Below, one piece after another: positions 36,880-50,391 of a stretch of DNA of 64,000 nt. Both the position numbers and the translations under genes were made by a program. The notes under the pieces are model-generated. The model saw nothing but the letters and a program-made list of their open reading frames with translations. It did not search any database and was not told where the DNA came from. Source of the stretch: Sycon ciliatum (taxonomy: Eukaryota; Porifera; Calcarea; Leucosolenida; Sycettidae); assembly GCF_964019385.1 (NCBI RefSeq), contig NC_088651.1, positions 7,742,329 to 7,806,328 of the forward strand, written 5' to 3'. Each line of letters starts with the position of its first letter. Positions within the stretch are counted from its first letter, which is position 1.

Positions 36880-36957
36880 CGGACTTTTACTGGGCATGAG
36901 CTGATGGAGGTAGCTGCGAAGATTCCCACCCGACATCAACTCCAGGATTACCATCAC
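36880..36957 (-). CDS. RTK gene B exon 9: kinase hinge
   Basis: The exon is 26 codons ([13 protein letters not shown] then [13 protein letters not shown]), phase 0 at both ends, with acceptor CTTATCTTCAG and donor AGTCCG|GTAAAA. It follows directly from TQSDP in exon 8. A (CT)n tract of about 300 nt precedes the acceptor on the transcribed strand. The next exons, which should hold HRDLAARN and DFG, would lie in or beyond the N gap. Confidence 0.85.
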
Positions 36958-48900: not shown

Positions 48901-50391
48901 CAGAAATCATTGAAATCAGGGTGGAGCCTTGCACAAACCCGGCATGTCAAGCTGAGAGTTTAGAAGGGAGAATGGAGTGAGTATGCTTACCTTTGAAAAT
49001 CATGCGCAAGGACAGGTCGATTTCCACCTTTTTACTAAAGGTGCGCTTGTTTGAAACACTAGGTAGTGTGTCCTTCCCATTTTGATATTGCGCACCAGTT
49101 GCTTTTGTTGAGCTTCCCAGCACACGACATCCTGTCTGCTGTGTTGTGACGCCAATGTAGACAGTCCGGGAGTACGGCATTAACCTCCGGTTTCCAACCG
49201 TGTAGTTATAGCTGAACAGGGTAGGTGTGGATACGGCCGGCATGGTCACCTTGGGTTCTACATACTCCAGTACGTATTCGTTATTCCTTAAGACCGATGT
49301 ATCTCGGTTCCAGACTGACACAATGAAATCACAGTTTGTCGTGCTAGAGTGGTACAGCTGAAAGCCCCAGATTCTCACGTTGCACTGTGTTATACTGTAC
49401 GTGGGCAGTATCCAGGTGAACTTGTACGCATTGCTCTGTCCTTTCAGCACCGTGCCATCCTGAGCTGGCGTACCGCCAAGAGAAGAGCACGCTGCATGGG
49501 CTGCACATACACGACCAAAAGAGCAGTGTTGATGATAACCAAGCAGAAAACCCTACAAACTGGGCAATGAATGATTATGCAGGCCCGGAGACACAAGCTC
49601 CTCAGTTACAGTCATGTCTCTACCAGGTTTCACCAATCAAAGTACTCATGGCATGTTCAATGTTCAACATGCAGTTGACTATGTGGAAGTACTGATATGC
49701 TATCTTTGTGTGCTTCTCGCTAGAGTATCTCCTTCCTAGGCTGTTCTTCTTGTCCAATGTGGACTACTGTGCTAGCTGTATATCTGTTGCTAACGAAGGT
49801 GTTGCTGCACATTGACAAAGCATGGAGCCTGAGATCCTCTCCCCCCCCCCCCCCCCCCGCCCCACACCTAATAATGATCTGCTGAAATTGGACATGGGTA
49901 AATGATCAACATCGCAGCAGACCATGGTGCTGTACCACCCCTGGGGAGGTGAGTCTGGGTCTCTTACGCTCCCCACCTATTTCCAGTCTCACTTTGCAAT
50001 GACCATCACTACAAGCACATTCATACAACCAGGAAGATGTAATGGAGTGCTAGGAACGCTGAGGCGGAGGGTTTGCCTGTCTGCACACGCCAGTACTATC
50101 ACCCCCACCATCACACACGCTCACTCATTAACTCGTACCCCTCCCCACCCTCGGCTCCTCCCCTCACACCAGCAAGCGGTGGACAAAAACCATCACACAA
50201 ACGATACTGTACATCATCAGTGATGTTATTACTCAAATTAATTTGATTGAATGGCATGTGAGCTGGCAGAGTGAAAGGAGCCCTAAAACACCGATTCCAG
50301 GAACCCTAAACCCATAGTAAAGCCACTCACCGCATGCTATCATTCCGAAAATGACCAGCAGGCGCTGGTGAAGGTAGCGTCGTCCTATCAT
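36880..50391 (-). CDS. Receptor tyrosine kinase gene B (nine exons, 3' end lost in gap)
   Basis: Nine exons join in phase to 852 codons: 50391-50331, 49500-48991, 47398-46337, 44629-44526, 44061-43657, 41332-41184, 40407-40371, 39213-39064 and 36957-36880. Order in the protein: signal peptide (1-22), unrecognised ectodomain (24-190), calcium-binding EGF domain (191-235), Thr/Pro stalk (about 240-430), Ser/Thr-rich stem, transmembrane helix (about 480-502), Tyr-rich juxtamembrane (503-753), kinase N-lobe with GAGEFGVV, VAVK (Lys786) and αC Glu802, then hinge ILELMSGGN. Expected activity is ATP-dependent tyrosine phosphorylation at the plasma membrane. The catalytic loop, DFG and C-lobe were not found left of 36880. 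The family is RTK; no named subfamily fits from sequence alone. Confidence 0.85.
36971..37281. repeat. (GA)n tract, about 310 bp
   Basis: Nearly uninterrupted GA repeats with rare GGGA and GATA variants lie immediately upstream of RTK exon 9 in the transcript sense, where they read as (CT)n. Confidence 0.97.
37441..37569. repeat. (GA)n and G11 tract in RTK gene B intron 8
   Basis: A second GA-rich microsatellite with some CAGAGA variants ends in a run of about 11 G. It lies in the same intron as the tract beside exon 9. Confidence 0.95.
38401..38537. mobile_element. 137-bp foldback MITE with 36-bp perfect arms
   Basis: AGTCATGAAGTTGATTGTTC followed by CAACTAGGAACACACG at 38401-38436 is repeated exactly in reverse at 38502-38537, leaving a 65-nt loop. 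It lies in RTK gene B intron 8 and carries no frame. Confidence 0.85.
38748..38935. mobile_element. 188-bp pogo-like MITE
   Basis: The ends CAGTCAACTTTGCGTAAAAC and, reversed, CAGTCAACTCCGCTAATAAC are flanked by TA on both sides (38746-38747, 38936-38937). It lies in intron 8 of RTK gene B, just downstream of exon 8 in the transcript sense. No frame is carried. Confidence 0.8.
39064..39213 (-). CDS. RTK gene B exon 8: catalytic Lys and αC helix
   Basis: The exon is 50 codons, phase 0 at both ends (AAATGTTTAG acceptor, GACCCA|GTAAGG donor). It carries VPVAVKILK with the ATP-binding lysine, [11 protein letters not shown] with the αC glutamate, and [15 protein letters not shown], the strand leading to the hinge. 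Confidence 0.88.
39243..39693. repeat. (AC)n, (TAC)n and (AC)n microsatellites
   Basis: (AC)n runs at about 39243-39371, (CTA)n at 39372-39446 with about 25 triplets, and (AC)n again at 39566-39693. All are in RTK gene B intron 7. The periodic frames through them are artefacts. Confidence 0.97.
40371..40407 (-). CDS. RTK gene B exon 7: 37-nt microexon completing the P-loop
   Basis: The acceptor CATGTCTGCAG and donor ATG|GTGAGG enclose one base plus 12 codons ([12 protein letters not shown]). Joined to exon 6 it yields [14 protein letters not shown], the canonical G-x-G-x-F-G-x-V ATP loop; joined to exon 8 it gives the expected spacing to VAVK. Both splice phases fit, which is why this small exon is accepted. 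Confidence 0.8.
40620..40965. repeat. Duplicated block ending in poly(G)/poly(C) runs
   Basis: Segments at about 40612-40680 and 40826-40910 share AGGTCCGRGCCGGA and a CAACCAYACTCC motif. A run of G lies at 40716-40735 and a run of C at 40945-40965. This is within RTK gene B intron 6. Confidence 0.7.
41184..41332 (-). CDS. RTK gene B exon 6: end of juxtamembrane, start of kinase
   Basis: The acceptor TTGCCTGCAG and donor GCTGG|GTAAGT bound 149 nt. The product runs from [14 protein letters not shown] through [15 protein letters not shown] to [11 protein letters not shown], where the Gly-rich loop begins. It leaves in phase 2, splitting the third glycine codon of the loop. Confidence 0.88.
41578..41714. 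mobile_element. 137-bp foldback element
   Basis: CTGCTCAATGAAATCCGATC at 41578 pairs with GATCTGATTTCATTGAGCAG ending at 41714; arms are about 28 bp. The same TCATTGAGCA motif recurs near 16065, 53512 and 55370, so the family is dispersed through the window. Confidence 0.75.
42057..43615. repeat. Decamer array (CTGTGCAGTG)n and related repeats
   Basis: About 120 copies of the decamer, with CTGTGCTGTGCAGTG and TTGTGCAGTG variants, fill 42057-43290. A longer derived repeat with GTGCATGGCATGCAGTGTGT follows to 43615. Long frames of AVLCS and HCTAL repeats run on both strands as a consequence. The array sits in RTK gene B intron 5. Confidence 0.96.
43657..44061 (-). CDS. RTK gene B exon 5: duplicated Tyr-acidic module
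   Basis: The exon is 405 nt, phase 0 at both ends (CTACTGCAG acceptor, ATCTAT|GTAAGT donor). It begins with basic KKRRRG, then PSEYLSP. Two related modules follow: [18 protein letters not shown] and [18 protein letters not shown], then STLYHTLEP. The modules look like an internal duplication that doubled phosphotyrosine docking sites. Confidence 0.85.
44526..44629 (-). CDS. RTK gene B exon 4: juxtamembrane, two Tyr sites
   Basis: The acceptor TTGTCTTTCAG and donor TTAATG|GTATGA define 104 nt, entering in phase 1 and leaving in phase 0. The translation includes QPIYEEAS and ENDYHSF, both plausible SH2 docking tyrosines. Confidence 0.82.
44674..44836. repeat. (AC)n microsatellites in RTK gene B intron 3
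   Basis: Two (AC)n tracts at about 44674-44722 and 44804-44836 enclose a short unique piece. They lie just upstream of exon 4 in the transcript sense. Confidence 0.95.
45229..45624. mobile_element. 396-bp hAT-like MITE
   Basis: The ends are inverted (TAGGGGTGAAA on both) and the element is flanked by a perfect 8-bp direct repeat, GTTAACAG (45221-45228 and 45625-45632). An 8-bp duplication with a T/CAGGGGTG terminus is characteristic of hAT transposons. GGGTACCCG motifs are repeated inside both ends. It lies in RTK gene B intron 3. Confidence 0.9.
45780..46065. repeat. (CACCCC)n/(AC)n composite microsatellite
   Basis: An initial (AC)n is followed by CCCCCA/CCCACA hexamers (about 45792-45900) and a long (AC)n with GTATACACGCACGC interruptions. 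It lies in RTK gene B intron 3. Confidence 0.96.
46337..47398 (-). CDS. RTK gene B exon 3: EGF, Thr/Pro stalk, transmembrane
   Basis: The exon starts after GCTTTTTCAG with DIDEC, the calcium-binding EGF signature, and all six EGF cysteines are present (C195, 202, 210, 219, 221, 235). About 190 residues of [13 protein letters not shown] repeats follow, encoded by a GTTGTTGGTGTG-like array, and should be heavily O-glycosylated. The helix [20 protein letters not shown] is followed by the stop-transfer RRR. The cytoplasmic start has a QHIYSEEE tyrosine site. The donor is GGAAG|GTTAGT, phase 1. Confidence 0.9.
47979..48093. repeat. Two-copy 57-bp tandem duplication
   Basis: AGTATTTGTGGCCAACGCTA followed by AGCTAAGTTTCGACAAC is repeated nearly exactly. 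It lies in RTK gene B intron 2. Confidence 0.85.
48233..48853. mobile_element. ~620-bp element with 18-bp inverted ends
   Basis: CACCCTTAGCAAACAACG at the left matches the reversed right end CACTCTTAGCAAACAACG. Inside are several GGGTACCCG-like motifs similar to those in the hAT-like MITE at 45229. The target duplication is not clear. It lies in RTK gene B intron 2. Confidence 0.6.
48991..49500 (-). CDS. RTK gene B exon 2: unrecognised ectodomain
   Basis: The acceptor is TGTATGTGCAG and the donor CAAAG|GTAAGC; phase is 1 at both ends. It encodes about 170 residues with Cys in [23 protein letters not shown] and TGCRVLG, and alternating hydrophobic segments suggestive of a beta-rich fold. SYNYTVG has an N-glycosylation sequon. 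I do not recognise the domain. It lies between the signal peptide and the EGF domain and so is the distal, presumably ligand-binding, part. Confidence 0.8.
50331..50391 (-). CDS. RTK gene B exon 1: signal peptide
   Basis: ATG at 50391 opens [20 protein letters not shown], a short basic start followed by a hydrophobic core, typical of a secretory signal. A stop codon lies just upstream in frame. The exon ends ATGCG|GTGAGT (phase 1) and joins exon 2 as Ala-His-Ala-Ala-Cys, giving a plausible cleavage site. A competing frame gives a 74-codon ORF that has no hydrophobic start and was not chosen. Confidence 0.75.

Follow-up and report, generated by a model that had tools for sequence, protein, structure and literature searches.

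Which kind of receptor is encoded by the exons that lie on the minus strand between positions 50391 and 36891 of this stretch of the Sycon ciliatum genome? The window, that is, the whole stretch of DNA analysed, has a length of 64,000 nucleotides, and the initial annotation had described the gene as a single-pass receptor tyrosine kinase (RTK) whose outermost domain could not be assigned. Our preferred answer, to which we give a probability of about 0.83, is that it belongs to a tandem-duplicated RTK family in which a four-Cys, all-beta and probably jelly-roll-like domain is carried on an EGF module and a mucin-like stalk.

Exon structure and domain order

The nine exons with matching splice phases that had been proposed were all found, with GT donors and AG acceptors at all of them (Table 1). 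The eight exon junctions share one reading frame, with phases 1,1,1,0,0,2,0,0 (exon 9 ends in phase 1), and the spliced genomic model of exons 1-9 codes for 848 residues. It reads, in this order, a signal peptide (called by a hydropathy peak only), a 170-residue four-Cys domain, EGF_CA, a Thr/Pro-rich stalk, a transmembrane helix, a juxtamembrane region and a tyrosine-kinase N-lobe. The exon structure, the domain order and an N-lobe with glycine loop and VAVK lysine are established from the genomic model, which has the layout of an RTK, with the kinase profile covered up to position 94 of 258 only. The RTK claim therefore stands as far as a signal peptide, an ectodomain, one helix and an N-lobe lie on one chain, while the kinase itself is incomplete and ends before an assembly gap, which the initial annotation had not mentioned. 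Introns measure up to 2.3 kb and several contain repeat arrays; in intron 5, about 123 copies of the 10-bp unit TGTGCAGTGC were observed at 42064-43275.

Table 1. Positions of the features discussed, in window coordinates unless preceded by C10
Feature	Position	Strand	Content
Exon 1	50331..50391	-	start codon and signal peptide; hydropathy peak at residues 10-30
Exon 2	48991..49500	-	170-residue domain, four Cys, no database name
Exon 3	46337..47398	-	calcium-binding EGF, Thr/Pro stalk, transmembrane helix, first part of juxtamembrane region
Stalk-core repeat	46832..47259	-	12-bp tandem unit, ~36 copies, 82% matches; codes for Thr/Pro stalk core
Exon 4	44526..44629	-	juxtamembrane region
Exon 5	43657..44061	-	juxtamembrane region; duplicated segment YEYPIDLDP / YDYPIDLDP
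Exon 6	41184..41332	-	end of juxtamembrane region and kinase start (ITIGKELGA)
Exon 7	40371..40407	-	37-nt mini-exon, remainder of glycine loop; similar mini-exons in paralogs
Exon 8	39064..39213	-	kinase beta3 (VAVK) and alphaC
Exon 9	36891..36957	-	kinase hinge region
Assembly gap	36644..36843	.	200 N; begins past last exon, rest of kinase not seen beyond
Paralog catalytic-loop exon	63488..63535	-	DLAARN
Paralog activation-loop exon	62929..63021	-	DFG and activation loop
Paralog C-lobe exon	62154..62267	-
Paralog C-lobe exon	61589..61677	-
Paralog last exon	59218..59449	-	C-lobe end, short tail, stop
Exon-2 domains with downstream kinase exon	windowed gene; C10 7815338, 7837405, 7884181, 8278173
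Decayed exon-2 fragments	C10 7907316, 7908093

Between the outermost domain and the membrane, the single calcium-binding EGF domain that had been announced was recognised by EGF_CA (E 5.7e-10, 39.7 bits against a cut-off of 27), with its DxDEC start and six Cys. The Thr/Pro-rich stretch, which had been put at about 190 residues, measures 243 residues without Cys (117 T, 49 P). A single transmembrane peak at about residues 479-502, on a chain with a tyrosine-kinase N-lobe, agrees with the single-pass receptor first proposed. The juxtamembrane region has 252 residues and 15 Tyr and contains an imperfect duplication (YEYPIDLDP / YDYPIDLDP), whose local alignment score of 88 exceeded the maximum of 59 obtained in 500 shuffles, the region being split between both segments and the shuffles at the middle.

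The exon-2 domain and its copies on C10

The domain encoded by exon 2 has the length of about 170 residues and the four spaced Cys originally ascribed to it (170 residues; Cys at 25, 60, 77 and 145), and it proved just as unassignable as had been stated. There was no match to Pfam at E up to 10, to PDB sequences either by single sequence or by a nine-member profile, or to NCBIfam at E up to 1. When nine copies of the domain were compared with Pfam, two names appeared in one member each (E 0.052 and 0.097), and the sequence-profile searches, a check for which the initial annotation had called, matched no RTK ectodomain family. Two structure models of the domain are both all-beta and both of low confidence, and they match carbohydrate-binding modules, among others, at background level. 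The modelling suggests a jelly-roll-like beta-sandwich as its fold.

The length of the exon-2 open frame is not significant taken alone, since a frame of at least 201 residues also arose in 33 of 300 random sequences of 16 kb. Codon log-odds, trained on a small set (exons 5, 6 and 8 and the paralog C-lobe), gave -4.6 for the true frame, -47.8 to -79.1 for the other five frames and -44.2 to -108.3 for two intron pieces.

A search of the 538-Mb own genome with the exon-2 protein (16 of 16 candidates scored) returned 11 matches, all of them on C10 within 7.79-8.31 Mb (~0.5 Mb). Besides the query itself, these are copies at 92, 66, 65, 63, 45 and 42%, two short decayed pieces, and two distant copies at 24% which are marginal (E 0.06 and 0.08). 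With one distant copy as query, the hits were that copy, its distant counterpart and, at E 0.0016-0.055, three members of the first set. All nine aligned copies retain the four Cys without exception, the alignment leaving out the two short decayed pieces, and a tree of these nine domains gives strong support only to the split of the two distant copies from the other seven. Among the 21 pairs formed by seven copies, dN/dS was 0.20-0.34 in 11 deep pairs and 0.57-0.71 in four close pairs, six being saturated and without value. As judged from the sequences, the domain is under purifying selection among the paralogs.

The nearest relatives of the cluster's kinase exons are other kinase exons of the cluster. 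With the VAVK exon as query, the best five of 10 genome matches lie on C10 (66-100%, the rest 50-59%), and with the DFG exon of the neighbouring paralog the best seven of 19 do so (84-100%, the rest 52-74%). A kinase exon was found downstream on the same strand, with no exon-2 domain detected in between, for five of the nine exon-2-type domains (Table 1); a further one, at C10 8307560, may pair with the kinase exon at 8352671, 45 kb away. For the remaining three (C10 7906604, 7915815 and 8161643) no kinase exon was seen, which means that some copies of the domain may occur without a kinase. All these pairings are made by position only. The kinase locus of C10 7884181 (L044) has the same kinase start, mini-exon, VAVK and hinge exons, and in L035 three EGF modules are visible by eye, the third perhaps incomplete. 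Together, the windowed gene is supported as a member of a tandem family in its own genome. The family may also be lineage-specific, as the initial annotation had suggested, the search for copies having covered this one genome.

Outside this cluster, the genome has at least 145 PF07714 matches, with Ser/Thr kinases counted too. Among the matches listed, 24 of similar score are found on one strand at G000:C5 28.06-29.91 Mb, a separate kinase expansion, and nine stand in a row on one strand at G000:C14 17.91-18.05 Mb.

A second receptor-kinase C-lobe, with DLAARN, DFG and a short tail, lies on the same strand of the window at 59218-63535, and the rest of this neighbouring paralog was read from 11 kb of flanking DNA. 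Its exon 2 is located at C10 7815814 and its EGF at C10 7814386 (96% over 50 residues). The exons follow in the order exon 2, EGF, Thr/Pro stalk, transmembrane segment, kinase start, mini-exon, VAVK, hinge and an exon ending in HR, and then DLAARN and DFG. The neighbour repeats the architecture, so that two genes show the order as far as the kinase N-lobe and one of them shows it on through a kinase that has the main motifs. Clear counterparts of exons 1, 4 and 5 were not found in it, and near its 3' end exon 2 departs from the reading frame of L033 and L035, so this copy may be decaying or may carry a sequencing error.

The kinase, the assembly gap and competing explanations

The kinase match (PK_Tyr_Ser-Thr, E 5.9e-22) covers profile positions 1-94 only. 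The 37-nt mini-exon restores the glycine loop, and the N-lobe aligns through it with EphA5 (2r2p, 75.4 bits), with two single-residue gaps after the mini-exon. Within the window, no convincing C-lobe exon of the gene (catalytic loop or DFG) was found past the gap, where a few short motif matches occur without kinase context, e.g. HRDVR at 30350, and where the C-lobe of the neighbouring paralog used as query gave nothing below E 0.05. The HRD and DFG motifs were not found in the assembled part of the gene and are present in the adjacent paralog. Most likely, the C-lobe exons either lie within the gap or were separated from the gene by a misjoin of the flanking piece. As the gene lacks a C-lobe of its own at this gap, an active kinase is inferred for it from the paralogs.

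Beyond the gap, inspection by eye showed a 15-bp unit resembling TTCGCGCTGTACTTG in two long arrays, at 27800-28830 and 32740-34000, and an inverted repeat of a few hundred bases, which includes AAATAGGGCTTTCAAA, at 31229-31620. Further on, a retroelement occupies 7678-10509 on the minus strand (reverse transcriptase RVT_1, 6.6e-15; RNase H-like RVT_3, 2.2e-5), with an upstream frame that has a SAP domain (7.1e-9). At 4647-6714, similar frames on both strands (e.g. 5204-5860 minus and 5822-6394 plus) look like an inverted duplication by eye; three frames of this region had no Pfam match.

The break in the kinase could also mean that the C-lobe is truly absent and that the gene is a decayed or kinase-dead member with its outer part intact, which would then work as a decoy or a cell-surface adhesion protein. 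The lack of a convincing C-lobe exon in the window would fit, as would the position of the seven close DFG-exon matches on C10 (the query's own included), none of which lies 3' of the gene, and the presence of decayed exon-2 fragments in the cluster. We nevertheless hold this to be unlikely, since the break coincides with an assembly gap and the remaining exons keep their frame and splice sites. That the model fused two unrelated genes, an EGF-stalk gene (for a secreted or membrane protein) and a kinase gene downstream of it, is very improbable: long introns with repeat arrays and the purely genomic nature of the model leave room for such an error, but eight of eight junctions are in phase and the neighbouring paralog repeats the order, mini-exon included.

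A divergent Eph receptor is a further reading, which we consider rather improbable. Exon 2 would then encode an ephrin-binding (galactose-binding-like) domain that has changed strongly, and the EGF would be what is left of the Cys-rich region of Eph receptors. Among PDB structures the N-lobe is indeed nearest to Eph kinases (1.7e-20), the paralog C-lobe also scores well against them (the single top row being a chain with two EGFR kinases, whose scores are summed), and an N-terminal four-Cys domain followed by EGF recalls Eph receptors. The all-beta models, with their background-level matches to carbohydrate-binding modules, would also suit it; according to the accessible part of PMC6485061, the Eph ligand-binding domain derives from a galactose-binding-like fold, and cnidarians, sponges and ctenophores have Eph-receptor architectures so far not found in bilaterians. 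Against this, exon 2 had no Ephrin_lbd (PF01404) match at E up to 10, nor had any of its nine copies; fn3 was absent from the scans of exon 3 (E up to 0.1) and residues 1-239 (E up to 1); and no SAM was matched by Pfam in the paralog tail, the windowed gene's own C-terminus lying outside the assembled part. The N-lobe is not Eph-specific, since it matches IGF1R too (2.3e-14), and an EphA2_TM match over the transmembrane helix is sub-threshold (E 0.0079, 17.3 bits against a cut-off of 28.9) and carries little weight.

Relation to known receptor kinases and meaning

Membership in the Eph family by sequence thus fails on the ligand-binding domain and fn3. The gene shares with Eph receptors the affinity of its N-lobe and the succession of four-Cys domain and EGF; unlike them, it has a mucin-like stalk in place of the fn3 repeats and a long, tyrosine-rich juxtamembrane region. 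Its N-lobe is also similar to the insulin/IGF1 receptor kinases, whose hinge sequence we take to resemble that of this gene, but the scans of residues 1-239 and exon 3 listed none of the ectodomain domains of that family (receptor L, furin-like and fn3), and the insulin receptor family was rejected for this reason.

Unusual ectodomains are also a trait of choanoflagellate and sponge RTKs outside the known animal families. According to the accessible part of PMC3584944, receptor kinases whose ectodomains are unusual occur in large sets in a choanoflagellate, and a sponge has 150 receptor kinase genes; judged by this, an odd ectodomain does not in itself make a receptor kinase a new kind. In the literature searched, which was compared by description and not by sequence, neither the exon-2 ectodomain nor the combination of domains was recognised. 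Since the outermost domain is unrecognised in the databases searched, the gene probably represents a novel version of a well-known receptor type.

If the tandem-family reading is right, the four-Cys outer domain would be held off the membrane by one EGF module and the mucin-like stalk. Binding of a ligand, most likely a glycan or a protein of the cell surface or matrix, would bring receptors together, the associated kinases would phosphorylate each other, and the juxtamembrane tyrosines, some of them in the duplicated segment, would recruit SH2 proteins. This long juxtamembrane region with its duplicated tyrosine segment is a second unusual trait and is directly testable.

Early animals and their relatives have receptor kinases with many ectodomains that lack known ligands, the choanoflagellate case being described in the available part of PMC3584944. 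A compact, conserved, single-exon recognition domain in a tandem family ought to lend itself readily to expression and testing, and the members of the cluster offer natural variants for ligand mapping. It is conceivable, though in our opinion unlikely, that the cluster represents a receptor-kinase system in local expansion, a single new jelly-roll-like recognition domain having been copied over ~0.5 Mb. The copies would have diverged in sequence (92% to 22%) and, as seen by eye, in the length of the stalk and the number of EGF modules (one to three). Were this true, the cluster would be a candidate locus for self/non-self or microbe recognition that signals by tyrosine phosphorylation instead of using immunoglobulin or LRR domains.
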